Shown here piece after piece: positions 4,156-17,472 of a stretch of 64,000 nt of DNA. The notes beneath the pieces were generated by a model. That model ran no database searches. It was given only the letters and a program-made list of their open reading frames with translations, and was not told where the DNA came from. Position 1 is the first letter of the stretch. Every line of letters begins with the position of its first letter. The stretch is taken from NCBI RefSeq assembly GCF_031458135.1, contig NZ_JAVDXW010000001.1, forward strand, positions 2,046,001 through 2,110,000, written 5' to 3'. The DNA comes from Haloactinomyces albus (GTDB lineage: Bacteria > Actinomycetota > Actinomycetes > Mycobacteriales > Pseudonocardiaceae). A program made the translations under genes and the position numbers.

Positions 4156-4641
4156 TCAGCCGTCGGCCAGTTTCGCCTGCCACATCCAGTGGGTTTCCTC
4201 CAGCTTTGCCGAGATCGACAGCAACAGATCCTGCGTGACCAGGTCCGTCTTGTCCGTCTCGTCGATCCGTGCCCGCAGGCGGCGAATCAGCGTGGCCAGA
4301 TTCTCCACGACGGTCTCGATGACGTTGCGGTCCTGTTGCCAGCCCGCGTCCATGTTCGGTACGCCGGAGCCCTCGGCGACCGTGCTGGCCCGGGCGTCCG
4401 GCGAGATACCGATCGTGGCCGCGCGCTCGGCGACGTTGTCGGCGAACTCCCTGGCGCTGTCGACCAGCTCGTCCAGATGCAGGTGCACCTCGCGGAAGTG
4501 GGTGCCCACCACGTTCCAGTGAGCCTGCTTGGCGGTCAGGTGCAGATCGACCATGTCGACCAGGGTGCCCTGCAGCGCCTTGCCCGTGATGTCGCGTTCG
4601 GAGTTACCCAGCGGGCTGGTGATCGGAGCCTTCTCGGTCAT
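4156..4641 (-). CDS. dps: Dps family ferritin-like protein
   Basis: 161-residue Dps-type protein expected to form a dodecamer that oxidises and stores iron and protects DNA. The ferroxidase residues are visible: the KQAHWNVVG motif (His, with D-x-V-D-L-H just before it) and the H-x-x-L-D-E-L-V-D helix from about residue 60. Length is normal for the family. A strong ribosome site, GAGGAGG, lies upstream of the ATG. Flanking redox genes suit an oxidative-stress role. Confidence 0.93.
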   Translation of the reverse strand: MTEKAPITSPLGNSERDITGKALQGTLVDMVDLHLTAKQAHWNVVGTHFREVHLHLDELVDSAREFADNVAERAATIGISPDARASTVAEGSGVPNMDAGWQQDRNVIETVVENLATLIRRLRARIDETDKTDLVTQDLLLSISAKLEETHWMWQAKLADG

Positions 4642-4784
4642 GCTCGTCCTACCTCCTCACGTGCCGCACCGGCACTCGGTTCGAGGGCGTTGTCCGGGAA
4701 GTACCCCGAGTTCGGCACACCTCAAACCGGTGATCTCGATCACGAGAGGACGGGCACCTGCTTCTTTGCGGTGCCCGAGCGGTG

Positions 4785-5348
4785 TCACGAACTCCGGAGC
4801 GCGAAGTCCGTCACCTGGCGTCCGACCGTGTGCAGGGTAGAGACCACCTTCGGGTCCGAACATTCCCCGCCGGGTCCGAGCCGCGTCTCGGTCGAGTTGA
4901 CCGCCGCGCCCAGGGGCGTCGGCCAGCCACGCAGCGCGTGCACCACCGAACGCAGCTGCTGCAGGGTCGTCACCGTGGCCTGCCAGCCGTAGGCGGTACC
5001 GACGCAACCCACAGCCCGGCCCTCGAGGTACGGGCGGTCGGCTTCGCGGAGATCCTCGACGTAGTCGAGGGCGTTTTTGATCAGTCCCGAGAAGGTCCCG
5101 TGGTAGCCGGGTGAGGCGATCACCACACCGTCCGCGGCACGGAGCGCCTCCACGAGTTCGTGCGCATTGTCCGTGCGCTCGGTGACCGACGGATCGAAGA
5201 AGGGCAGCACCAGGCTGCTGCCGGTGATCGCGTGGACCTTGGCACCGGCCTCGCGCGCCCCCGCAAGCACGGCATGCAGGGCACGTTCGGACTGCGAGTC
5301 GGACCGCACCGAACCGCCGATCCCCACCACGGTCACCGTCATTATCAT
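4785..5348 (-). CDS. NAD(P)H-dependent FMN reductase family protein
   Basis: 187-residue flavodoxin-like reductase. The N-terminal GIGGSVRSDSQS segment matches the FMN phosphate loop (G-S-x-R-x-x-S). PGYHGTFSGLIKNALDY, about residues 80-100, is the usual S-P-E-Y-(N/H)-G-x-x-x-x-x-L-K-N-x-x-D-(W/Y) motif. It should move electrons from NAD(P)H to flavin or quinone-type acceptors. Two in-frame ATGs (5348 and 5342) follow GAGGAAAGG; either may be the start. It is not tightly linked to its neighbours. Confidence 0.88.
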   Translation of the reverse strand: MIMTVTVVGIGGSVRSDSQSERALHAVLAGAREAGAKVHAITGSSLVLPFFDPSVTERTDNAHELVEALRAADGVVIASPGYHGTFSGLIKNALDYVEDLREADRPYLEGRAVGCVGTAYGWQATVTTLQQLRSVVHALRGWPTPLGAAVNSTETRLGPGGECSDPKVVSTLHTVGRQVTDFALRSS

Positions 5349-5535
5349 GATCCTTTCCTCGGCGTCACCCGTCTGTCGCCCGCCCTCGCCGATTCGTGTG
5401 ACGGCCGCCCGAGCGTACGCATACGCCACGTTACGAGTTCGAGCGAACTGGAAGTCAATCGCGGGCGTATGTCTCGCACCACAAGCTACCTGCGGGTAAC
5501 GTCCGGATCACCACTGTCTCACCGGGAGGTTCACC

Positions 5536-6612
5536 GTGTCCAAACCCCTCGATCCGATCCCGTCGCACCTGCGGACACGCGCACAAGGCGCCGCGCTCCG
5601 CCGTGTTCTCGCCCTGCCGCAGCCGGTGCTGCGCCGGATTGCGGGCGCACCGATCCGGATCGACGGGCAGGAACTGGCTCTCGAGGCCCAGGCTCTGCTC
5701 CGAATGCAGGGTCTCGCCGGCCGTGCCCAACTGTCGGCGGACACCGTGGAGAAGGCACGGACCGCCATGCGGGAAGCGACCAAGATCATCGGCGATACCG
5801 CAGTAGCGGGTGTCGAAACGACCGCCGAGCACATTCCCACGGCAAGCGGCGGCATCGACGCGCGCCTGTACCGTCCGGAGACGTTGACCGCGTCGAGTGC
5901 GCTCATGGTCTTCTACCACGGTGGCGGATGGGTTCTCGGCGACCTCGACAGCTACGACGGGCTGTGCCGGATGCTCGCCAAGCACGCCGGGATCCGGGTG
6001 CTGTCCGTGGACTACCGGCTCGCCCCCGAGAGCCCCTTTCCCGCAGCGCTCGACGACGCACTCGACGGATACCGGTATGCCCTCGACCACGCCGAGAAGC
6101 TCGGCACCACACCGGACTCGCTGCTCGTGGGCGGGGACAGCGCAGGCGGTAATCTCGCCGCGGCCGTCGCGCAGCACGCGACCGCATCCGACATCAAGAA
6201 ACCCGTGCTGCAGGCTCTGCTCTACCCGGCCGTGGACGCCAGCACACGGCGCCGCTCGCGGGAATTGTTCGGCGAGGGCTTCCTGCTCACCGATGCGGAC
6301 ATGGACTGGTTCATGGACCACTACCAGCCGGACAGCAGCCTGCGTGGTGATCCGCGCTTGTCCGTGCTGTTGGCCGAGGACCTGAGCGGACTCCCGCCTG
6401 CCTACGTGGCCACGGCCGGTTTCGATCCACTGCGCGACGAGGGCGAGGAGTACGTGCGACGCCTTCGGGAAGTCGGAGTCCCGGTGGCCGCCCGGCGATT
6501 CACGGACCTGATGCACGGCTTCCTGAACCTGCACGCCGCCGGAGGACGGTTCCAGGAGGCACTGTTCGAGATCATCGGATCGATCCGCACCGGACTGGCG
6601 CTGCGCGGCTGA
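5536..6612 (+). CDS. alpha/beta hydrolase, HSL-type esterase
   Basis: 358-residue esterase/lipase of the hormone-sensitive-lipase family. The oxyanion-hole motif YHGGGWV is at about residue 127-133 and the nucleophile motif GDSAGG at about 200-205. Acid and base are likely Asp in ATAGFDPLRDEG and His in MHGFLN near the C terminus. It should hydrolyse short-chain esters; the natural substrate is unknown. GTG at 5536 is preceded by GGGAGG. The gene is convergent with the LuxR-type regulator, separated by a hairpin. Confidence 0.92.
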   Translation: MSKPLDPIPSHLRTRAQGAALRRVLALPQPVLRRIAGAPIRIDGQELALEAQALLRMQGLAGRAQLSADTVEKARTAMREATKIIGDTAVAGVETTAEHIPTASGGIDARLYRPETLTASSALMVFYHGGGWVLGDLDSYDGLCRMLAKHAGIRVLSVDYRLAPESPFPAALDDALDGYRYALDHAEKLGTTPDSLLVGGDSAGGNLAAAVAQHATASDIKKPVLQALLYPAVDASTRRRSRELFGEGFLLTDADMDWFMDHYQPDSSLRGDPRLSVLLAEDLSGLPPAYVATAGFDPLRDEGEEYVRRLREVGVPVAARRFTDLMHGFLNLHAAGGRFQEALFEIIGSIRTGLALRG

Positions 6613-6727: not shown

Positions 6728-9259
6728 TCAGTCGACCAGCGCGCGGAGCCGGGTGAGCATCTCCTCGCGGGTGGTGCTTCCGAGACGCTGCTTGATCCGG
6801 CCGATGTGGTGCTCGACGGTCTTGGCGGAGATGAACAATCGCTTGCCGACCTGCTTGTAGGTGTACCCGGCCAGGACCAGCTCGGCGACCTCCCTCTCCC
6901 GGTCGCTGAGCAGGTCCGCTCCACCGGCCGAGGCGCTTCCGGAGCCTCGGCCGGCCGCGGGAAGCTTCTGCGGCCGCGGGGCCTTGCCCTGCAGGGTCCG
7001 CGCGCACTCCAGCAGTGCCGGCATCACCCGGCGGTCGGTCGTCCGGACCGCCGCCTGCCCGGCCAGGTTGGCACCGTCCCAGACCAGTCCTGCCGAGTGC
7101 AACGAGCGAGCGGCCCGCTCCGTTTCGGACTGATCGACTTCTCCGGCCAGGATGTTCAACCACACCTGCGCACCGTCGGACATCGCCGTGGACAGCGGAG
7201 TGTGGTGGGCCATCCCCTCCAGAGCGGCGGCGTGCTCGCGGGCCCGGTCGTGCTGCTCCAGCACGACCGCCGCCTGCAGGCATTTCCAGTGCAGCATGGC
7301 ACTCCACAGTGGTGGCGTGCCGAGGTCGCCGAGCAGGTACCGCGCCTCCCGCAGATACGGGGTCAGCCACTCCTGGTCGCGCAGCCGTGCCGTGGCGACC
7401 ACGAGCTCGCCGAGCGGCAACATCGTGAACAGGTCGACGGGATGCTCGGCGAAGATCTTGCGGGCACGGCTGCGTACGTCGGCCAGCGCGGTCATGTCGT
7501 TGTCCCGGTTGGCGATTCCCGCCTCGATCGCGATCGCCACCAGACGGTCCCGCGTGGCGAGGGCGCCCGCATCGTCGTACACACCGGCCAGCTTGTTGCG
7601 CGCCGTCATCGTGTCTCCCCGCAGCAGTGGGACCCACGCCGAGAGCAGGTGATGCCGGGTCCGCAGCAGCGCTCCGCCGGTTCCGGACTCGATCGCGCGG
7701 TCGAGCGTCGACTCGGCGACGTCGAACTCCCCGCAGTGCAGGGCGACGACGGAAGCGACAGCGGCGGGCGTGTCGGGCAGCAGTACCGTGCGCCCGATCG
7801 ATTCCGACAATGAGGCTGATCGAACGAGTGTGGACAGTGCTGTCGTGGCCGAGCCGGTGACCGACTCGTGCATTCCCTCGGCGAGTTGCGCAGCCGCGCC
7901 GGACAGCGTCGTCGGTGGCCCGACATCGGCAGGTGAGCGCAGCAGTTGGCCGGCTTCCTCCAGTCGCCCTGTTCCGGTCATGCCGAGCACTGCGAAGGCG
8001 ACATCACCGGACCAGCGAACGTGTTCCACCGACCACCGGCACAGCTCCGTGGAACGTGCGAGCAATCCGCGATGGGCCAGCACGGCCGCGGCGACCCGGA
8101 TACCGAGATCCCGGTCGGCGATGGCATCGTCCACAATCACCTGATCGGCGGTGCGCAGTGCCTCGTCGAGGTCTCCTGCCGCTGCTGCCGCACGAGCACG
8201 CCGGGCGGCCACCGATGTGACCGCGGTTCCCGCCGACACGGCGGCATCGAACAACCGCACCGCCAGCTCCGGCGAATTCACCCACGCTTCGTCGCCCGCC
8301 TTCTCGAACGCAGCCGCCATCGTGGGTTCCGAAAGGAGTGCGCTCTCCGCGCCCAGCAGTGGCTGAACCAGCGCGAGAACCGATCCGCCACGATCGAGCT
8401 GCATCCGGATCAGTCGCCGCAGCACCTCGAGTCGCCGCTGCCACGGTGTCAACGCGAGCACCGCATCCCGTGCCACCGGAAGCAGTCCGTCGTGGGCATC
8501 CACCAATCCGCTCGCGCGGACCGCCGACATCGCCTCGGTGACAGCCGTCGATTCGACGTCGAGCGCCGAGGCGAGCAGTGCGGGATGTGCCGTGGCTCCG
8601 AGGGCCACGGCGACGAGGCAATCCCGCGCGTGCCCGCCGAACTGGTCCAGATCGTGGTGGAACCGATCGAGCACCGCCTGGGGCATACCGGGATTGCCGT
8701 CCGAATCGATGTCTCCGGAATCCACCGCGCTCAGCAGCCGGGAGACCAGCCGGGGAACACCTCCGGTCCGCGAGCGCAGATGTTCGACCAGGTCCGAAGT
8801 GACCGGTGCGCCGAGTGCCGTCTCGGCTTGCTCGGCGATCTCCCCTCGATTCAGTTCTCGCAACAGGATCGGCTGGAGACGGCGCCCGAGTGCGCCGACG
8901 AGCGCGGCCAGCGCCTCCGAGCGCGGCCAAGGGCGGTAGGCCACGACCAGCCGCGTGGCGGAATTCTCCGCGAGTTCCTCCAGGGTGCGCAGCGTCGCTT
9001 CATCGATCCGGTGGGCGTCGTCGACGAGTACGGCCGCGTCGGAGGGATCGGCCGGGAGCGCCGTGGTGTCGTACACCGTGATTCCCGCGTCCCGGTAAAT
9101 CCGGGCAAGCCGAGCGAGCAGCGCCGTCTTGCCATACCCTCCGGACCCTTGAATCCCGGCGACGACCGGCGCTGTGGGATCCGCGGCAATCGATTCGCGC
9201 AGCGCAGCGGCGGATACAGCCATGCTCGGGGCAGGAGGTACGACTGTCGAATGGTTCAC
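6728..9259 (-). CDS. LuxR-type AAA regulator, IniR-like
   Basis: 843-residue regulator of the large ATP-binding LuxR type. The N-terminal NTPase has a Walker A motif GSGGYGKTALLARLA and Walker B-like AAVLVDDAHRI. A long helical, TPR-like middle follows. The C-terminal 60 residues are a LuxR/GerE helix-turn-helix (SDREREVAELVLAGYTYKQVGKRLFISAKTVE, split here only for naming). Length and position next to iniB-type genes match mycobacterial IniR (Rv0339c, about 830 residues), so it probably switches on the divergent ini genes. Start choice is uncertain: GTG 9259 has a weak upstream GGGACGG; ATG 9223 is the alternative. The frame extends upstream but there overlaps the Hsp70-like gene. Confidence 0.82.
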   Translation of the reverse strand: MNHSTVVPPAPSMAVSAAALRESIAADPTAPVVAGIQGSGGYGKTALLARLARIYRDAGITVYDTTALPADPSDAAVLVDDAHRIDEATLRTLEELAENSATRLVVAYRPWPRSEALAALVGALGRRLQPILLRELNRGEIAEQAETALGAPVTSDLVEHLRSRTGGVPRLVSRLLSAVDSGDIDSDGNPGMPQAVLDRFHHDLDQFGGHARDCLVAVALGATAHPALLASALDVESTAVTEAMSAVRASGLVDAHDGLLPVARDAVLALTPWQRRLEVLRRLIRMQLDRGGSVLALVQPLLGAESALLSEPTMAAAFEKAGDEAWVNSPELAVRLFDAAVSAGTAVTSVAARRARAAAAAGDLDEALRTADQVIVDDAIADRDLGIRVAAAVLAHRGLLARSTELCRWSVEHVRWSGDVAFAVLGMTGTGRLEEAGQLLRSPADVGPPTTLSGAAAQLAEGMHESVTGSATTALSTLVRSASLSESIGRTVLLPDTPAAVASVVALHCGEFDVAESTLDRAIESGTGGALLRTRHHLLSAWVPLLRGDTMTARNKLAGVYDDAGALATRDRLVAIAIEAGIANRDNDMTALADVRSRARKIFAEHPVDLFTMLPLGELVVATARLRDQEWLTPYLREARYLLGDLGTPPLWSAMLHWKCLQAAVVLEQHDRAREHAAALEGMAHHTPLSTAMSDGAQVWLNILAGEVDQSETERAARSLHSAGLVWDGANLAGQAAVRTTDRRVMPALLECARTLQGKAPRPQKLPAAGRGSGSASAGGADLLSDREREVAELVLAGYTYKQVGKRLFISAKTVEHHIGRIKQRLGSTTREEMLTRLRALVD

Positions 9260-9321
9260 GGGCCGTCCCAATCGGTGAGCGGTGATCGTTCGATACGGCA
9301 GTGCTGATCGGTGGTGTCCGG

Positions 9322-10722
9322 CTATTGCGACATGACGCCTATGCTCGGTTGCTGTGGCCCGCCCCAGCCCTGCATGTAGGTCAGGACCAGCCCGAAAATG
9401 ATCAGTACGGCGGCCAGTACCAGTTTGATGATCTTGAAAGTGCGGTTTTTGCGGGGGGGCTCGAGATGCATCGGCTCGACCTCGACCGGGGGCCGTGGCA
9501 CATCCGGCCGCTCCGGGACCTCGACCTCCTCGTCGACGATCGGCAGCTCTCCGGGATCGCGCTCGGAACCCTCCACCCGCATGAGCACACTCGTCTCTTC
9601 GGCCGCCACCGACCGATTGCGCCCACCGTCCAGAATCTCCGTGCGAGCGGCGCAGGCGGCTCCACGAGCGGCGACCAGCTCGGGAGCACTGTCCACTTGT
9701 ACCTGCCGCTCGAAGTGCCGGGATACGAGCTGCTGCGCCAGTGGCGTTCTGGCCGTACCGCCTGCCAGCACGACAGCACCGAGTTCCGCGGAGTTCACCG
9801 ATGCGGACTGCACCACCTGCTGAAGCAGATCGGGCACCCGCTCCAGGTGGTTGCGAACGAGTTGTTCGTATCTCACTCGGGACAGCGCAACCTGCGTCCG
9901 CAGCTGCGGCAGCTCGACCCGCAGCGCGGCCTTGGGCTGGTACGACAGGACCTCCCTGCCCCTGGTGCATTCGGCACGCAACTGGAAAGCGGCCACCCGA
10001 TCGCGGGGGTCGGCGGGATCGAGTGTGACCCGGTGCCCACCGAGCTCACTGCGGAGGTATGCGATGACCTCGTCGTCGAGTGCGTTGCCGCTCGGGTGCA
10101 CGGAGTCCAGTGGGGAACCGAGAACCTCGAAGCCGGGCAGCTCGCCGTCCTGCTCCTTGCGCAGGACCGTGGCGTCGAAGCCGGTACCGCCGACATTGGC
10201 GACGGCGACGATCTCGCTGCTCTCCACGCGCGTCCGGCTCGCGTAGTCCAATCCGACCGCCACCGGCTCGGGCAACAGCGTCACCTCGTTGAGGTCGAGC
10301 CGTTCCAGCTCCTGACGGACGAGATGGGTCCGGTGTGGACCCCATGCTGCGTTGTGGGCGACGGCGATGTGCTCCGCGGGGGCGCCCTGGCGGTGCGCGA
10401 CCTGATCGGCCACCCACTCGATCATGACCGCGGCGAGCCGGTGTGCCGTGACGAACTCGTTGCCCACCATCAATGCGTGGTCGTCACCCACCTGCTGGGT
10501 GAACGATCGCACCACCCACTCGTGATGGGCCGGTTCCTGGCGTTGCGCGGCCTCTCCGGCCACGAACGAGCCGTCCTGCACCTTGCACAGCACGGTGGGA
10601 ATGGTGGGGCCTGCACTGCCCAGCGGAAACGGGGACACCATCCCGCTCTGTCCCGCATCGCGCCGGGCGACCGCAGCGGATGTCGCGGTGGCACCCAGGT
10701 GAATTCCCAGGACGTAAGGCAT
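9322..10722 (-). CDS. membrane-anchored Hsp70-like protein without substrate domain
   Basis: 466 residues. The actin/Hsp70 nucleotide-binding fold fills about residues 1-370. Phosphate-1 loop is GIHLGATATS (usually GIDLGTTNS), phosphate-2 is VANVGGTGFDATV (usually D-L-G-G-G-T-F-D), and the adenosine motif VVLAGGTARTP is intact. Two key aspartates are therefore His and Asn, suggesting weak or absent ATP hydrolysis. There is no substrate-binding domain. Instead an acidic, proline-rich linker leads to one C-terminal membrane segment (IIKLVLAAVLIIFGLVLTYM) with a short tail, so the head should be cytoplasmic. GGAAGGGG precedes the ATG. It is upstream of the LuxR-type gene on the same strand (62-bp gap) and divergent from the IniB-like gene. 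Confidence 0.85.
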   Translation of the reverse strand: MPYVLGIHLGATATSAAVARRDAGQSGMVSPFPLGSAGPTIPTVLCKVQDGSFVAGEAAQRQEPAHHEWVVRSFTQQVGDDHALMVGNEFVTAHRLAAVMIEWVADQVAHRQGAPAEHIAVAHNAAWGPHRTHLVRQELERLDLNEVTLLPEPVAVGLDYASRTRVESSEIVAVANVGGTGFDATVLRKEQDGELPGFEVLGSPLDSVHPSGNALDDEVIAYLRSELGGHRVTLDPADPRDRVAAFQLRAECTRGREVLSYQPKAALRVELPQLRTQVALSRVRYEQLVRNHLERVPDLLQQVVQSASVNSAELGAVVLAGGTARTPLAQQLVSRHFERQVQVDSAPELVAARGAACAARTEILDGGRNRSVAAEETSVLMRVEGSERDPGELPIVDEEVEVPERPDVPRPPVEVEPMHLEPPRKNRTFKIIKLVLAAVLIIFGLVLTYMQGWGGPQQPSIGVMSQ

Positions 10723-10982
10723 GACACCCCTTCCGGCTCACCTGATCGGGAAAGCCTGGCGGACCCAACTTAGCGTGTATCCAATCACGCAGAGACGCAG
10801 TATCACCTATGGACCCCCTAACGGGTCACACGAATGATCCCCTAATAGAGGTTTTCATAACTAGGAGTGGTTCCCGATGGAAACGGCGCGGGGGCTCTGT
10901 AGCTTGAATAACCGGGAGGACGGGGAACCGCACCACCCCGCCCGGCTTCAGCAACTCGAGTGAGTTCAGGAGGAGATCAGCG
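10723..10982. promoter_or_regulatory. divergent control region of the ini locus
   Basis: This 260-bp region separates the Hsp70-like and IniB-like genes and must hold both promoters. Two direct copies of CCCCTAA lie at 10815-10821 and 10839-10845, 24 bp apart, in the most AT-rich part; they could bind the adjacent LuxR-type regulator. No promoter boxes can be assigned with confidence. A strong AGGAGGAG ribosome site precedes the IniB-like ATG. Confidence 0.5.
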
Positions 10983-11819
10983 ATGCTGCACTCCCGATCG
11001 GAGCAGGCTCCGGGGTCGTCGACCTCGGCGGGTGCCCCCACTTCCACCCCCGGGACACACACCACACAAGCCGACCAGCCGACGCTGCACGAGTTCCTCA
11101 CGCGACTCGTCGGCAACCCGCAGGCCCGGTCGGAATTCGAGGCCGATCCCCGCGCCTCGCTGGACAGTGCCGGTCTCGGGGACATGACCGCGGCGGACGT
11201 GCTTCAGGGCGCGTCGCTGGTGCTCGACTACGCACCGGTCGAGGTCGTACAGGAGTACGGCCGCTCACTCCAGAGCAGCGTCGACACGTTCACGGTGAGT
11301 ACCCAGCACGTCGCGATCAACCAACTACATCCCGCACAAGAACACGAGCTTCAGGAAGCGACGGAACCGAGCATGTTGCAGAACACCTCCTCCACCAACA
11401 CCGACACCTCCTCCAACGGTGACGCCGACGAGCAGATGCCCGCTCCCCAGGAGACCAGCAACGTCGAGGTCAACCACAGCGTCGAGCAGGTCGACTCGCA
11501 CAACCTGATCAGCGTGCACGACGTCCTGAGCGGCAACGACGTCCTGAGCGGCAACGAGGTCAACGTCGAGGGCAACAACGTCGGTGTCGTGGGCAACACG
11601 GTCGGCACCGTGGGCAACACCGTCGAGTCCGCCGGTGACACCGTGACCAGCACGGTCGACAGCGTCGGCGACGTCACCACCGGCCTGGTCAACGTGTCGA
11701 CCGGCGACGTCCTGGGCGACGTCACCGGCGCTGTCGGCAACATCGCCGGCGGTGCGGTCGGCACGGTGGGCGGTGTCGCCGACGGTGCGACCTCCAGCCT
11801 GGGCCTGGACGTGCTCTGA
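10983..11819 (+). CDS. iniB: IniB-like repeat protein
   Basis: 278 residues. The N-terminal domain (about residues 27-90; LHEFLTRLVGNPQARSEF, then DPRASLDSAGLGDMTAADVL) matches the IniB N-terminal domain. A polar, Asn/Thr/Ser-rich linker follows. From about residue 175 a degenerate seven-residue repeat runs nearly to the end (NVGVVGN, TVGTVGN, TVESAGD, TVTSTVD), rich in Val, Gly, Asn and Asp. No signal peptide or membrane segment is seen. Mycobacterial IniB is longer and its C-terminal half is Gly/Ala-rich; its function is unknown. First gene of the rightward ini group and separated from iniA by a hairpin. Confidence 0.82.
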   Translation: MLHSRSEQAPGSSTSAGAPTSTPGTHTTQADQPTLHEFLTRLVGNPQARSEFEADPRASLDSAGLGDMTAADVLQGASLVLDYAPVEVVQEYGRSLQSSVDTFTVSTQHVAINQLHPAQEHELQEATEPSMLQNTSSTNTDTSSNGDADEQMPAPQETSNVEVNHSVEQVDSHNLISVHDVLSGNDVLSGNEVNVEGNNVGVVGNTVGTVGNTVESAGDTVTSTVDSVGDVTTGLVNVSTGDVLGDVTGAVGNIAGGAVGTVGGVADGATSSLGLDVL

Positions 11820-11929
11820 GTCTGAGCATTCCCGGTCGGAGCACTCGGTCCCCTCCTTGGCGAGGGTCTCTCGGGGAGCCCCCGGCAGGACGGCCGACCG
11901 AGTGGTCACGCTCCGGCTGATACAGCATC

Positions 11930-11965
11930 GAAACGGGCCCGCTGCTCCCTCAGCGGGCCCGTTTC
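11930..11965 (+). terminator. strong hairpin between iniB and iniA
   Basis: Perfect 15-bp inverted repeat starting GAAACGGGCCC with a six-base loop. Only weakly T-rich sequence follows, so it may terminate or attenuate transcription after iniB and lower iniAC relative to iniB. Confidence 0.65.
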
Positions 11966-12064
11966 GATAGCCACTCCGCCCGCAAGGCGGACAAATCGGT
12001 CAGGTGCCGCCGGATTCCACCCATCCGGTTTTTCCCTCGAAAGAGGGACGGGCACAATCGAACC

Positions 12065-13876
12065 GTGATCGAAACGGCTCTCGTGGAACTGATCGACCGG
12101 GCAACGGCCGAGTGTGCCGGGCAACAGCGCCTCGATCTCCACAACCGGCTACGGCAGATCCGCAGCAGGGTTCTGGATCCCGCCCAGCTCGTTCTCGTGA
12201 TCGGCGAGTCGAAGCAGGGCAAGAGCGAACTCATCAACTCCGTCGTCAACGCACCGGTCTGCAACGCCGGTAACGATGTCACCACAGCCGTGCCGACGAT
12301 CGTCCGGCATTCCGAGGAAGCCTCCGCTCAGCTCATCCAGCAGGACCCCTCTCACGACCCCGCCGCACTCGATCGACTTCCGGTACCGATCGAACAGGTC
12401 CACGACCAAGTGGACCGGGCAGTTGCCGACGGCCGCCCCATCACCCGCACCGAAATCAACCTGCCGCGGGCGATTCTCAAAAACGGCCTGGTGCTCATGG
12501 ACACGCCGGGATTCGGCAGTGTCTCCTCCTCGCTGACCGCCACCACACAGGCGGCCGTGGCAGAAGCCGACTCGTTGATCATGGTCTCCGATGCCACGCA
12601 GGAACTGACCACCAACGAACTCGGTTTCCTGCGGCAAGCCGCCGCGCTGTGCCCGAACGTGGCTCTCGTGCAGCCCAAGACCGACATCGCGCCACAGTGG
12701 CGGCAGGTTGTCGAGGTCAACCGCAAGCATTTGTCGAATGCGGGGATCGCCGCCAAGATCTTTCCGGTCTCGTCGAAGGTACGGGTACAAGCGACCAGCG
12801 CCAGGGACCCCGACATCAACGTCGAGTCCGGGTTTCCTCCACTGCTGGAGTACCTTCGTACCGAGATGGCCAACAAGCACGAGGAGTTCACGCGCAAGCT
12901 GGTGTCCCACAACATCACCGATGCCCTCGACCAGCTCATGACGGCGCTGCGGGAGGAACTCAGCAACCAGAATCCCCGCACGGCCACCGAGACGCTGGTC
13001 GAACTGGAAAGCGCCCAGCACCGGGCCGAGGAGCTCAAGCGGGTCGCGGGCCGATGGCAGAAGACGCTGTCCGACGGCATCCAGGAGCTGTATTCCGACA
13101 TCGAGCACGACTTCCGGGAACGCAGCTGGGCCATCCTGCACCAGGTCAACGAGACACTCGACGAGGCCGACCCGAACAGGTCCTGGGAGGACTTCGCCGA
13201 GTGGCTGTCGTCCAACTTGTCCGAAGCCATTGCCGAGACCTTCGGCTGGCTGGACGAGCGCCGTGAACGGCTCACCGAGCAGGTCGCCGACGAGCTTCTG
13301 CGCGAGCACGTGCGAGCACTGCCCAACCTCGATCGAATCCACGCGCCCGATCCGCTGGACCGCATACCGGAACCGACCGCTCCTCGCGGCTCGGACTTCC
13401 CCCGCAAGGATCAGATCCTGACCGGGCTGCGCGGCTCCTACGGCGGGGTGCTCATGTTCGGACTGATCACCAGCATGGCCGGGCTGCCCCTGATGAACGT
13501 CGTATCGATCTCGGCCGGACTGCTGCTGGGCAGCAAGAGCCTCAGCGAGGAGAAGGACGCACGCCTCAAGCGCCGCCAAGCCGAGGCCCGCGCGACCGCC
13601 CAGCGCTATGTGGACCACGTGACTTTCCAGGTGAACAAGGAAGCCCGGGACACCATCCGGAATCTGCACCAGCGGCTGCACGAGCACTGCAACCGGGTGA
13701 CCGAACAGGCCCAGATCCGGATCAGCCAATCCATTCAGGACATCAAGCGCGAAGCCGAGCGCAGTGCCGTCGACCGCGACGAACGCGCACGGGAGATCAA
13801 AAAGAAGCTGGAGGAGCTGACCGTCCTACGCAAACGGGCCACCATGCTGACCTCGAACAGCATCGCCGCCGCATGA
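12065..13876 (+). CDS. iniA: dynamin-like GTPase IniA
   Basis: 603-residue bacterial dynamin-like protein. P-loop GESKQGKSELIN is near residue 40, switch/G3 motif DTPGFGS near 150, and G4-like QPKTD near 205. The C-terminal half is helical and carries a hydrophobic paddle (about 455-490; RGSYGGVLMFGLITS, then GLLLG), closely like the RGSYGG segment of mycobacterial IniA. Known IniA binds and fissions membranes; it is induced by cell-wall drugs such as isoniazid and ethambutol. GTG at 12065 has a poor ribosome site. It overlaps iniC by 4 nt (ATGA), so the two GTPases are translationally coupled. Confidence 0.9.
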   Translation: MIETALVELIDRATAECAGQQRLDLHNRLRQIRSRVLDPAQLVLVIGESKQGKSELINSVVNAPVCNAGNDVTTAVPTIVRHSEEASAQLIQQDPSHDPAALDRLPVPIEQVHDQVDRAVADGRPITRTEINLPRAILKNGLVLMDTPGFGSVSSSLTATTQAAVAEADSLIMVSDATQELTTNELGFLRQAAALCPNVALVQPKTDIAPQWRQVVEVNRKHLSNAGIAAKIFPVSSKVRVQATSARDPDINVESGFPPLLEYLRTEMANKHEEFTRKLVSHNITDALDQLMTALREELSNQNPRTATETLVELESAQHRAEELKRVAGRWQKTLSDGIQELYSDIEHDFRERSWAILHQVNETLDEADPNRSWEDFAEWLSSNLSEAIAETFGWLDERRERLTEQVADELLREHVRALPNLDRIHAPDPLDRIPEPTAPRGSDFPRKDQILTGLRGSYGGVLMFGLITSMAGLPLMNVVSISAGLLLGSKSLSEEKDARLKRRQAEARATAQRYVDHVTFQVNKEARDTIRNLHQRLHEHCNRVTEQAQIRISQSIQDIKREAERSAVDRDERAREIKKKLEELTVLRKRATMLTSNSIAAA

Positions 13877-15348
13877 GCCCCGCCGCCCACACCGGCGAAG
13901 CACCTCCGGGTCTGTTGCAACAGGCCCGCGCACTGTTGATCCGGACGATGACCTTCTACCGGGACGACCCCAGAACGGCGAGCTGGCTGCGCGAACGACT
14001 CGAACGGATCGACGAACCACTGCGGATCGCCGTCACCGGCCGGGTCAAATCGGGCAAATCGACACTCATCAACGCGTTGGTGGGGGCCGATCTCGCCCCG
14101 AGTGACGCCGAGGAACGCACCCAGGTCAACACCGTCTACCAGTACGGGCCGGAACCGAGGATCACCGCCTACACGCCACATGGCGCGGCGCAGAACGTCC
14201 CCGTCAGCACGCTGGACCCCGGCACGATCCGGGACCTGCAGCGCTGGCGACCCGACGAGGTGGCCCGGCTGGTGATCGACTCCCCGTCACCGGGACTGCA
14301 GGCCATCACCCTGATCGAAACACCCGGCGTGTCCTCCTCGGCCGTCAAGGAAACCGGTCGTTCGGCACTGGCGCAGATTCTGACCGAAGCCGATGCCGTC
14401 CTCTACCTCACCCGGCATCCGCACCAAACCGACATCCAGTTCCTGCAGTCGGCGCACGAACTGCAGGTCGCCCGCCGCGCACCGATCAACACGATCCTCG
14501 CGCTCTCCCGGGCCGACGAGACCGGCAGCGGTAGCAGCGATGCCATGCCTGCCGCGGACAAGGTCGCCCGGCAATACCGGGACGAACCGCGGGTGCGCTC
14601 CTTCGCGCAGTATGTGCTGCCGGTGGCGGGTCTGCTCGGGCAGGCTGCGGCAACACTGAGTGCGCAGGACGTCGATGTGCTGGCCGAACTGGCACGACTG
14701 CCCGCGGAAGAGCGCGAGAACCTGCTGCTGTCCGCCGACCGTTTCGTGAACAGCACGACGCCGGAGACCATCCCCGCCGCCACCCGTCAGGACTTGCTGC
14801 GACGACTCGGCCGTTTCGGAGTCGAGCATGCGACCACGCTCATCGCCGGAGGTTCCGGTGACCTCAAGAAGCTCCGCTCGGCCCTGCTGGCCGACAGCCG
14901 ACTCAACGACCTGCAGGAAGCCGTGCATCAGCAGTTCGTCGAGCGGCAGGAGGCCCTGCGTGCACGCTCGGTGCTGATGGCCGTGGACATGGTGCTGCGA
15001 GCCAATCCCCGTTCCGGAGCGCAGCAGCTACGCGGAGAGTTCGAGCGGCTGCTGGCGAATGCGCACGAGTGGGACGAGCTGCGTCTGCTGTCGGCACTGC
15101 ACTCCGGGCAGGTGCGCTTGCCCGGTCGAGAGCAGGAAGCGGCGGAGCGTCTGCTGGGGGCTTTCGGCAGTCAACGGCGTACTCGGCTCGGTCTGGGGAC
15201 GGACACGTCGGAGGCCGAGCTGGCCGACCGGGCGGGCGAAGCTCTGGTCCGGTGGCGGCTCCTGGCAACGGACCCGATGCAGGACAGCGTGCATCGGGAG
15301 GCGGCGCGTACGGTGCTGCGCAGCTGTGAGCGCCTCATCGCCGGTTGA
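13873..15348 (+). CDS. iniC: dynamin-like GTPase IniC
   Basis: 491-residue GTPase, almost the same length as mycobacterial IniC (about 493). The P-loop is GRVKSGKSTLINALVG near residue 55, the G3 motif ETPGVSSS near 145, and ALSRADE is a likely G4 (the N/TKxD lysine is Arg). No transmembrane helix is evident, unlike IniA, so it may act as the partner subunit. Its start codon overlaps the iniA stop. The locus ends with a GC-rich hairpin shared with the convergent katA gene. Confidence 0.88.
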   Translation: MSPAAHTGEAPPGLLQQARALLIRTMTFYRDDPRTASWLRERLERIDEPLRIAVTGRVKSGKSTLINALVGADLAPSDAEERTQVNTVYQYGPEPRITAYTPHGAAQNVPVSTLDPGTIRDLQRWRPDEVARLVIDSPSPGLQAITLIETPGVSSSAVKETGRSALAQILTEADAVLYLTRHPHQTDIQFLQSAHELQVARRAPINTILALSRADETGSGSSDAMPAADKVARQYRDEPRVRSFAQYVLPVAGLLGQAAATLSAQDVDVLAELARLPAEERENLLLSADRFVNSTTPETIPAATRQDLLRRLGRFGVEHATTLIAGGSGDLKKLRSALLADSRLNDLQEAVHQQFVERQEALRARSVLMAVDMVLRANPRSGAQQLRGEFERLLANAHEWDELRLLSALHSGQVRLPGREQEAAERLLGAFGSQRRTRLGLGTDTSEAELADRAGEALVRWRLLATDPMQDSVHREAARTVLRSCERLIAG

Positions 15349-15511: not shown

Positions 15512-16966
15512 TCAGCTGCCCTTGACCTTCTCGGCGATCCTGTCGCCGGTGGCCTTGTCGACGTTGCGCCAGTACTCCAGCGCACGGTCCAGCACCGGCT
15601 GCTGCACGCCGCCGAGCAGGTGTCCGGAGACGTTGTCGATGAAGCGGGCGCGCTCCTCGTCGTTGAAGACCTCGCGCACCATCTTGCCCGGCTGGCTGAA
15701 GTCGTCGTCCTCGGAGTGCAGCTGGTAGGCCGAGCGGATGACCTCCTGCTCGATGCCGGTGGCAGCGTCGTCCTCGCCGGACTTCGCGATGTCGGCGTGC
15801 GGGCCGCCCTTCGTGTTCGGCGCGTAGACGGGGTCCTGACCGCCGAAGCTGTAGCGCATCGGCCCGTCCTTGGAGTACGAGTTCACCTCGTTGATCGGAC
15901 GGTTGACCGGCAGGTCCATGTAGTTCGGTCCGATCCGGTAGCGGTGCGCGTCCGGGTAGGAGAACAGCCGTCCCTGCAGCATCTTGTCCGGCGAGGCACC
16001 GATGCCGGGGGGCATGTTGGCGGGCTCGAAGGCGGCCTGCTCGATCTGGGCGAAGTAGTTCTCCGGGTTGCGGTTGAGCACGAACCGGCCGACCTTGATC
16101 AGCGGGTAGTCGGCGTGCGGCCACACCTTGGTCAGGTCGAACGGGTTGAACCGGTAGTCCGCGGCGTCCTCGAACGGCATGACCTGCACGTAGAGCGTCC
16201 AGCTCGGGTGCTCGCCACCCTTGATGGTGTTGTACAGATCGCGGATGTAGTAGTCACCATCGGCACCGGCCAGCCGGTCGCCCTCGTCCTGCGTCAGGAA
16301 GTCGTTGCCCTGGTCGGTCTTGAAGTGGTACTTGACCCAGAACTTCTCGCCGCCGGCGTTGGTCCACATGAAGGTGTGCGAACCGTAGAGGTTCATGTGC
16401 CGCCAGGTCTTGGGCAGCCCGCGGTCACCCATCAGCCAGGTCACCTGGTGCGCGGACTCCGGAGTCTGCGTCCAGAAGTCCCACTGCATGTCGTTGTCGC
16501 GCAGGTGGTTGTCGGCGCGGCGCTTCTGCGAGTGGATGAAGTCGGGGAACTTGATCGCATCGCGGATGAAGAAGACCGGCGTGTTGTTGCCGACGAGGTC
16601 GTAGTTGCCCTCGCTGGTGTAGAACTTGATCGAAGTACCGCGCGGGTCGCGCCAGGTGTCGGGGGAACCCAGCTCGCCCGCGACCGAGGAGAACCGGATG
16701 AGGGTCTCGGTCTTGGCGCCCGGCTGGAAAACGGCAGCCTTGGTGTACTGGCTGACGTCCTCGGTGACCTCGAAGAATCCGAACGCGCCGCCACCCTTGG
16801 CGTGCACGACCCGCTCGGGCACACGCTCGCGGTTGAACTGGGCGTTCTTCTCGATCAGGTAGTGATCCTGCAGCAGGATCGGGCCGTTGCTCCCGGCGGT
16901 CAGCGAGTGGTCGTCGCTGGCTACCGGAATACCGGCGTTCGTGGTCGTGGGTCGTGGCGAACTCAC
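15512..16966 (-). CDS. katA: haem catalase KatA
   Basis: 484-residue monofunctional small-subunit haem catalase converting hydrogen peroxide to water and oxygen. The catalytic His is in [12 protein letters not shown] (His about 55), the distal Asn in [15 protein letters not shown] (about 128), and the haem-ligand Tyr in [18 protein letters not shown] (about 340). The C terminus is short, with no flavodoxin-like domain. GTG at 16966 is preceded by GAGGAGGAA. The start overlaps the furA stop by 4 nt (GTGA), so it is co-translated with its repressor. Confidence 0.96.
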
Positions 16967-17472
16967 GCTCGTTCCTCCTCGTGGTGGTGGCTCCGGTCCT
17001 CGTTGTGAGCGGACCGGCACTCCGGACACAAGCCCCAGAACACGACCTCCGCCTCATCCACGACATAGCCCGCTGTGGAAGACGGGGCCAGGCACGGGGC
17101 GGCGCCGTGGACGCAGTCCACGTCCTCGGTCCGTCCGCATCCACGACACACCAGGTGGTGGTGGTTATCGGCGATGCGGCCCTCGAAACGAGCCGGGTGT
17201 CCGGCCGGCTCGATTCGGCGTAGCAGCCCTGCGGCGGTGCACGCGTTCAGGACGTCGTAGACGGCCTGCGTGGACACCGATCCGAGTTCGTGTCGTACCG
17301 CACCGGCCACTTGATCGGCAGTCGAGTGCGGGTTGCTCCACAACCACCTGAGCACGGCGAGCCGTGGCCGGGTGGCTCGAAGCCCGGCAGCACGCAACTG
17401 CCCACGCGGATCGGCGAACCCTGGTTCACCTGAACGCGGGCCGGTGCTGCCGGAAGTCGTGCTGGGTGCCAT
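16963..17472 (-). CDS. furA: Fur family peroxide-sensing regulator FurA/CatR
   Basis: 169-residue Fur protein. The N-terminal winged helix contains [14 protein letters not shown] and [22 protein letters not shown]. The C-terminal dimer domain has [10 protein letters not shown] and CPEC, two CxxC zinc motifs, followed by a His-rich tail. In actinobacteria this protein represses its own operon and the downstream catalase until oxidised by peroxide. Here it is coupled to katA and preceded by a close match to the known FurA operator. The long N-terminal leader, about 20 residues, is low complexity. Confidence 0.93.

Follow-up and report, generated by a model that had tools for sequence, protein, structure and literature searches.

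The window analysed here, a 64,000-nucleotide stretch of the Haloactinomyces albus genome, carries an ini locus of five genes between positions 6728 and 15348, all of which we confirmed: iniR and an Hsp70-like gene on the reverse strand, followed by iniB, iniA and iniC on the forward strand (Table 1). The first-pass annotation had described ini genes facing a regulator and an Hsp70-like gene, and both the identification and the divergent layout are borne out by profile and structure matches. The IniB-like protein matches NF038175 with 54.9 bits, above the curated cut-off of 40; IniA aligns with structure 6j72 over residues 6-585 (E = 3e-112), indicating full-length homology to the characterised IniA of M. 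smegmatis; and IniC, encoded directly after iniA with a 4-nt overlap, is recognised by Dynamin_N (E = 2.6e-15). In IniR a GerE/LuxR HTH is detected and the NF038181 match covers profile positions 8-825 of 827, with a score of 452.2 bits that lies below the equivalog cut-off of 750, and on this profile evidence we call the protein a homologue at the corresponding position and not an established equivalog. The reading frame 6728-9970 is too long for iniR and runs into the Hsp70-like gene; the start common to relatives is the GTG at 9259. An Hsp70-IniR fusion, suggested by frames of 1378-1390 aa in at least three relatives, was rejected, as a TGA stop separates the two genes in L056; no fused frame occurs among loci L036-L172. 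The Hsp70-like gene and iniR are codirectional and 62 nt apart, and the Hsp70-like gene and iniB diverge across 260 nt.

Table 1. Features of the ini locus, in window positions.
Feature	Position	Strand	Description
iniR	6728..9259	-	STAND-type ATPase with LuxR HTH, 843 aa; NF038181 match, start set by comparison with relatives
Hsp70-like gene	9322..10722	-	466 aa; assigned from PF00012, DnaK structures and active-site columns; predicted pseudo-ATPase
CCCCTAA box 1	10815..10821	+	Candidate IniR operator; conserved in divergent region
CCCCTAA box 2	10839..10845	+	24 nt from box 1; conserved in divergent region
TAGGAGT element	10862..10868	+	Conserved column block in divergent region
iniB-like gene	10983..11819	+	IniB N-terminal domain, then Gly/Val/Asn-rich repeats; NF038175
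Hairpin, 18-bp stem	11927..11968	+	Between iniB and iniA; candidate attenuator
iniA	12065..13876	+	Dynamin-like GTPase, canonical G1 and G3 motifs; 6j72 match
iniC	13873..15348	+	Dynamin-like GTPase, G3 is ETPG instead of DTPG; Dynamin_N

The mycobacterial iniR/iniBAC system likewise combines IniR, a protein with the IniB N-terminal domain, IniA and IniC in a single locus. As published for M. tuberculosis, M. bovis and M. smegmatis, only the small gene iniB* lies between iniR and iniBAC, whereas the window has the Hsp70-like gene in that position. The window clade further differs in how its boxes are laid out and in having ETPG in IniC, both of which are specific to it.

The Hsp70-like protein shares a homologous nucleotide-binding domain with DnaK. 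It matches PF00012 with 82.3 bits (cut-off 20.6, E = 3.2e-23) over profile positions 107-377 of 599 only, and its residues 3-358 align with DnaK chain 2v7y (E = 4.5e-21). The nucleotide-binding domain (residues about 1-366) is followed by a linker with an RPPVEVEPM motif, a membrane helix and a short tail, with no substrate-binding domain beyond profile position 377; in this, and in the membrane helix and replaced catalytic residues, the protein differs from DnaK. The C-terminal anchor proposed in the first-pass annotation holds up as a single membrane helix, found in relatives as well. An AlphaFold2 model built from four sequences was too poor to use (mean pLDDT 42.2), residues 427-452, the helix, being its best-scored part. 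A membrane helix is present in 84 of the 104 Hsp70-like proteins at IniR loci and is thus not universal; in one Pseudonocardiaceae clade with degenerate Hsp70 sites it is mostly missing.

At D8, K70, D194 and T199 (DnaK numbering), which we take to be the catalytic residues of Hsp70, the window protein has H, T, N and G. Throughout the window clade D8 is replaced by H, K70 by T or V and T199 by G or S (33/33 each), and D194 by N or S in 32/33. E171 is retained in all 33, as are most cleft glycines in the proteins whose catalytic residues have changed; the canonical DnaK sequences in our set are intact in 7/7. With a site counted as degenerate if any of five residues is changed or missing, fragments included, the best tree requires four or more changes to account for the degenerate state, two of which fall on supported branches. 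Since degenerate proteins from other genera keep 47-65% identity to the window protein, their genes are not decaying pseudogenes. The degenerate ATPase site makes an ATP-driven motor unlikely in the window clade, where the protein looks like a pseudo-ATPase, as predicted from these residues. Upstream of iniR, 72 Hsp70-like genes are degenerate and 6 intact; with IniR apart or absent, 7 are degenerate and 43 intact. Once descent is allowed for, at most two of five independent pairs agree, which is not significant, and the idea that loss of the site and tandem layout are causally linked was rejected because it fails this test of shared descent.

The first-pass annotation treated the Hsp70-like gene as linked to the ini genes and as an addition to them; the linkage stands and the label does not. 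A non-DnaK Hsp70-like gene is present within the roughly 20 kb examined at 58/58 loci picked through IniA and bearing IniA, IniC and IniR, a figure that counts loci and not independent lineages (some genomes contribute two or three) and omits the 32 window-clade loci and L068-L075, which were chosen via the Hsp70-like protein. Of 43 listed places, 40 entered the locus sample and three weak ones (142-146 bits) were left out. The Hsp70 profile was later rebuilt with additional sequences found during the survey; the original, made from Pseudonocardiaceae only, had already matched in 27/27 IniR-bearing loci of L076-L133. In a Mycobacterium-like genus, so labelled from the IniA of one genome (G202, 1014 bits against M. 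smegmatis IniA), the Hsp70-like gene lies at most 7 kb away in 43/43 IniA-bearing genomes, solely downstream in 13 of them. The source genome has three PF00012 places in 5.24 Mb, including a separate intact DnaK (L134), and a random 20 kb would be expected to hold one about 1% of the time; given 58/58, the linkage is not due to chance. Loss of linkage in most relatives, which would tell against cooperation with the ini genes, is thus not the case, and the Hsp70-like gene is a near-constant ini component in the relatives examined. A dnaK-like gene adjoining iniR in M. smegmatis was already in print, and this one sentence is the widest statement on the linkage in the literature we searched (PMC5760070). 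The missing substrate-binding domain, the replaced catalytic residues and the CCCCTAA boxes upstream of iniB go beyond the first-pass annotation.

The place of the gene varies: some loci have it between iniR and iniB, others downstream of iniC or ahead of all the other genes. Of the 133 non-DnaK Hsp70-like genes that were scored in loci other than that of the window, 78 precede iniR in the same orientation, a count that includes the 32 clade loci picked through Hsp70 itself; in 11 loci, of three layouts, the gene stays by iniB with IniR at the far end. Among dynamin-like pairs without IniR, again picked through IniA, it is nearby in 20 of 32 and absent from 12. One of those 12 loci, L086, ends at a contig edge.

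CCCCTAA boxes stand upstream of iniB in 32/32, 26/36 and 20/24 loci of three groups. Boxes there number 56, 41 and 35, against 3, 19 and 10 for a reversed-box control, a difference partly built in because tandem boxes themselves generate reversed letters. Across the source genome two box patterns show no excess over reversed controls (2 vs 2 and 1 vs 7), so we infer no wider regulon and rest the argument for the boxes on where they lie. ChIP-seq in M. tuberculosis places IniR on the DNA upstream of iniBAC (PMC5760070), and the boxes are a candidate IniR operator; TAGGAGT is possibly an inverted half-site. At the hairpin between iniB and iniA, a stem of at least 8 bp recurs in 27 of 35 scanned loci.

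Our main reading, to which we give a probability of roughly 0.45, is that the Hsp70-like protein belongs specifically to the ini envelope-stress system, as a membrane-anchored regulatory partner and not as a chaperone. The sequence itself shows which genes are present and linked, how their domains are built, and the altered active sites, the boxes and the hairpin; all protein contacts, the release step and the operator role in the following scheme are inferred. The protein would have kept the Hsp70 fold, lost the residues for hydrolysis in the window clade and gained or kept a C-terminal anchor. At rest it would keep IniR, an activator of the STAND type that resembles MalT, at the membrane, and might keep the dynamins there too, in the way that MalT is retained by the maltose transporter. 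Envelope damage would change its state and free IniR, which would bind the CCCCTAA boxes and switch on iniB-iniA-iniC, perhaps with the divergent Hsp70-iniR pair as well; IniA and IniC would then remodel the membrane, and the hairpin after iniB may leave IniB more abundant than either. The commonest layout, with the Hsp70-like gene directly upstream of iniR, points to the regulator at least as much as to the dynamins, and we favour IniR as the partner, with the dynamins perhaps included. Since overexpressed IniR can induce iniBAC and M. tuberculosis has only iniB* between the two, the Hsp70-like protein cannot be a universal requirement (PMC5760070). Also counting against this reading are the proteins that lack a membrane helix, the loci in which the Hsp70-like gene stands away from iniR or solely downstream, the absence of a genome-wide box excess and the non-significant tie between site loss and tandem layout. 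That Hsp70-fold pseudo-ATPases, often anchored and repeatedly stripped of catalysis, might serve across the Actinobacteria as a receptor or latch from envelope damage to IniR and IniA/IniC is a more doubtful extension.

A partner of IniR alone would not explain the Hsp70-like gene beside dynamin pairs without IniR, and these loci favour direct action with IniA and IniC at the membrane, for example as a nucleotide-gated or scaffold assembly cofactor. The motifs give this alternative further weight: IniA/IniC G3 changes occur in 46/69 degenerate-Hsp70 loci and 3/28 intact ones (Fisher p = 3.6e-7, kinship ignored, with 8 loci omitted because the G3 column was uncovered), and ETPG is found in IniC in 33/33 of the window clade and nowhere else where the column is covered. 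We still think it unlikely, given that the Hsp70-like gene is missing from 12/32 IniR-less pairs against 0/58 with IniR, and that a degenerate Hsp70 and canonical G3 motifs coexist in 23 loci. The gene might also accompany ini through shared ancestry of gene order, without functional tie. Esterase and FMN-reductase genes are likewise kept beside ini in 30/32 window-clade loci, so linkage within that clade says little by itself and the weight rests on other lineages; the gene nonetheless remains in the locus despite changing place, and stays across several families (flanks were compared within the window clade only), which makes mere gene-order ancestry improbable.

Two further readings concern what the domain itself does. 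The PF00012 match could speak for an ordinary Hsp70 chaperone, one protecting or recycling the dynamins under stress, but that match is the nucleotide-binding part alone, 466 aa are too short to fit a substrate-binding domain and the catalytic residues are replaced; with the domain absent and the site lost, we rejected this scarcely credible option. The Hsp70 nucleotide-binding fold is common to sugar kinases, and the retained E171 and cleft glycines beside changed catalytic residues would suit a site that binds another ligand, such as the sugar trehalose, with the protein serving as receptor for the whole system. In mycobacteria iniBAC is induced by trehalose, although the same study leaves direct trehalose binding as a question for IniR itself (PMC5760070), and we consider such a receptor quite improbable.

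First-line cell-wall drugs strongly induce ini genes, and a near-constant Hsp70-like partner would offer a testable entry to damage sensing by IniR and to the role of the dynamins. If the regulatory reading is true, an Hsp70 active site lost repeatedly in the same genomic setting would offer a clear natural example of how a molecular motor becomes a regulator, with the Hsp70 fold used for signalling instead of chaperoning. The MalT-like make-up of IniR, and the comparison with E. coli MalT held by the maltose uptake system, were set out earlier (PMC5760070); the proposed holder here would be an Hsp70-fold protein and no transporter, a parallel, drawn by analogy, in likeness of working and not of descent. 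LeoABC and Campylobacter DLP1/2 are described without IniR, and the part of the Campylobacter account available to us mentions no Hsp70 partner for the pair. Both systems nevertheless consist of paired dynamin-like genes, as do IniA and IniC, which the PADLOC LeoBC and LeoA models match weakly.

At the locus studied here (see table), the frame at 6728-9970 chosen for the regulator gene in the first-pass annotation proved overlong. An IniA alignment was run against 296 genomes from the class and another 37 genera from the family, and the 95 loci fetched were scanned with purpose-built profiles. A non-DnaK Hsp70-like gene (hsp) occurred at all 58 loci carrying IniA, IniC and the regulator IniR, at 20 of the 32 with IniA and IniC and without IniR (one of the other 12 is cut by a contig end), and at none of the five without the IniA-IniC pair. 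In a genus with Mycobacterium-like IniA, 43 of 59 genomes encode IniA and, among the matches listed, all 43 hold an Hsp70-like relative within 7 kb (upstream in 30, downstream only in 13); canonical DnaK was not separated by its own test in these counts, the DnaK genes of two genomes (G202 and G330) lying about 19 kb from iniA, beyond the 15 kb counted. Relatives also occur in all 16 genomes of this genus without IniA, and the wider Hsp70-like family is therefore untied to ini; for comparison, PF00012 matches number 2-14 per genome in a set of 20, some proteins being split in two. One Mycobacterium-like ini locus (L113) has iniA split into two overlapping frames and likely broken, and the window's own 5.24 Mb actinobacterial genome (G000, in which the window spans C1:2046001-2110000) has a second dynamin-like pair (L124, G000:C1:2446000-2465900) with neither an Hsp70-like gene nor IniR.

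Genes of the ini locus in the window
Gene	Position	Strand
iniR	6728-9259	-
Hsp70-like gene (hsp)	9322-10722	-
iniB	10983-11819	+
iniA	12065-13876	+
iniC	13873-15348	+

This layout, iniR and hsp divergent from iniB, iniA and iniC, is the commonest among 137 scanned loci (54, including 32 clade loci; see below), and hsp is still divergent from iniB at 11 loci with iniR at the far end; no fused frame, Hsp70-IniR or other, was found among the 137. In the clade, ini sits in a stress-gene neighbourhood: next to iniR, at 4156-6612, lie genes that by eye look Dps-like, FMN-reductase-like and esterase-like from sequence and are kept in 28, 30 and 30 of the 32 loci, and a catalase-like gene follows iniC (15512-17029, minus strand; the same in 22 of 32).

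The Hsp70-like protein, 80% identical to its closest named relative, from Halopolyspora algeriensis, comprises a nucleotide-binding domain followed by a linker that is acidic, rich in proline and marked by a conserved block, RPPVEVEPM, then a single hydrophobic helix and a tail (15-23 residues in 32 clade relatives); it has no substrate-binding domain. The PF00012 match is confined to profile positions 107-377 of 599 (E 3.2e-23), and the alignment with DnaK 2v7y covers residues 3-358 (E 4.5e-21). Since the AlphaFold2 model was unusable (mean pLDDT 42.2), the fold assignment depends on homology. Away from ini, the same genome encodes another Hsp70-like protein (L135, G000:C1:2825000-2844000; 646-aa frame), which carries a membrane helix and whose site is intact.

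Aligned with its own genome's DnaK, the window protein keeps E171 and carries D8H, K70T, D194N and T199G, at positions that belong to the active site in DnaK. Across a clade of 33 (the window and 32 relatives from 7 genera, among the matches listed from 200 family genomes searched), D8, K70 and T199 are replaced in all members and D194 in 32, while E171 is always retained; the Mycobacterium-like proteins have S, V, D, D and G at the five positions. Around ini and dynamin loci, 49 of 134 non-DnaK Hsp70-like sequences are intact at all five residues and 85 are not (7 DnaK set apart, fragments scored as changed). A tree built from 81 of the 141 sequences (thinned at 72% identity, without fragments or site columns; quick method, backbone partly open) implies at least four changes between intact and degenerate states, two of them forced by supported branches. 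Because DnaK is intact, we read these sequence changes as several losses of the active site, the count alone leaving direction unfixed.

Site state varies with gene position: degenerate and intact sites number 72 and 6 where hsp lies upstream of iniR in the same orientation, 5 and 0 where it lies downstream, 5 and 16 where iniR is apart, and 2 and 27 where the locus has no IniR; the association of degenerate sites with the tandem layout is not significant once descent is allowed for. On the best reading, the protein would be anchored in the membrane and act as a regulatory partner of the ini system, and we tentatively favour its acting as a latch on IniR (probability roughly 0.45) because hsp adjoins iniR, catalysis is probably lost and IniR is MalT-like. 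That the protein acts directly with the dynamins seems less likely; pointing that way are the hsp genes beside dynamin pairs without IniR, and GTPase-motif changes shared with degenerate Hsp70 sites. The IniC G3 motif reads ETPG in place of DTPG in 33/33 clade members, and outside the clade the position is D wherever covered, bar one odd row (locus L169); G3 changes in IniA or IniC occur at 46/69 loci with a degenerate Hsp70 site against 3/28 with an intact one, uncorrected for descent. A latch on IniR and a direct dynamin role could also operate together; every protein contact in either is one that we infer. At many Pseudonocardiaceae loci (within L142-L167), the Hsp70-like protein has lost the membrane helix as well as the catalytic residues, and IniA and IniC have altered G3 motifs. 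We found in the open-access literature no description of an Hsp70-like or DnaK partner of IniA, iniBAC, bacterial dynamins or IniB beyond PMC5760070, which records a dnaK-like gene next to iniR in M. smegmatis, although absence is unproven; published passages on IniA structure and on HpoR mention no DnaK or Hsp70 partner.

The clade's divergent region contains a conserved TAGGAGT and, in most members, two CCCCTAA boxes 24-26 nt apart (strict two-box pattern in the window and 24/32 relatives). At least one box lies upstream of iniB at 32/32 clade, 26/36 other Pseudonocardiaceae and 20/24 other-family loci. Box density there is 2.69, 1.75 and 2.24 per kb, and the remainder of these loci has 0.000, 0.006 and 0.041 per kb; reversed-box controls gave 3, 19 and 10 hits against 56, 41 and 35 for true boxes. 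Outside the clade, a relaxed pair pattern occurs at 0.879 per kb in the DNA upstream of iniB and at 0.027 per kb in other DNA. The 64-kb window holds 2 occurrences of the box pattern against 0.15 expected, and across its whole genome box patterns show no excess over controls. Given the position of the boxes, and since in M. tuberculosis the DNA immediately upstream of iniBAC is bound by IniR (PMC5760070, whose passages considered here contain no IniR binding motif), we propose the boxes as a candidate IniR operator.

Between iniB and iniA lies a perfect 18-bp hairpin (11927-11968), and stems of at least 8 bp, differing in sequence, occur in this gap at 27 of 35 scanned loci. An attenuator here would explain why RNA-seq favours IniB over IniA and IniC, as the discussion in PMC5760070 has it. 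The IniB N-terminal domain bears a weak likeness to the RiPP leader family TIGR04509 (16.1 bits, cut-off 34).
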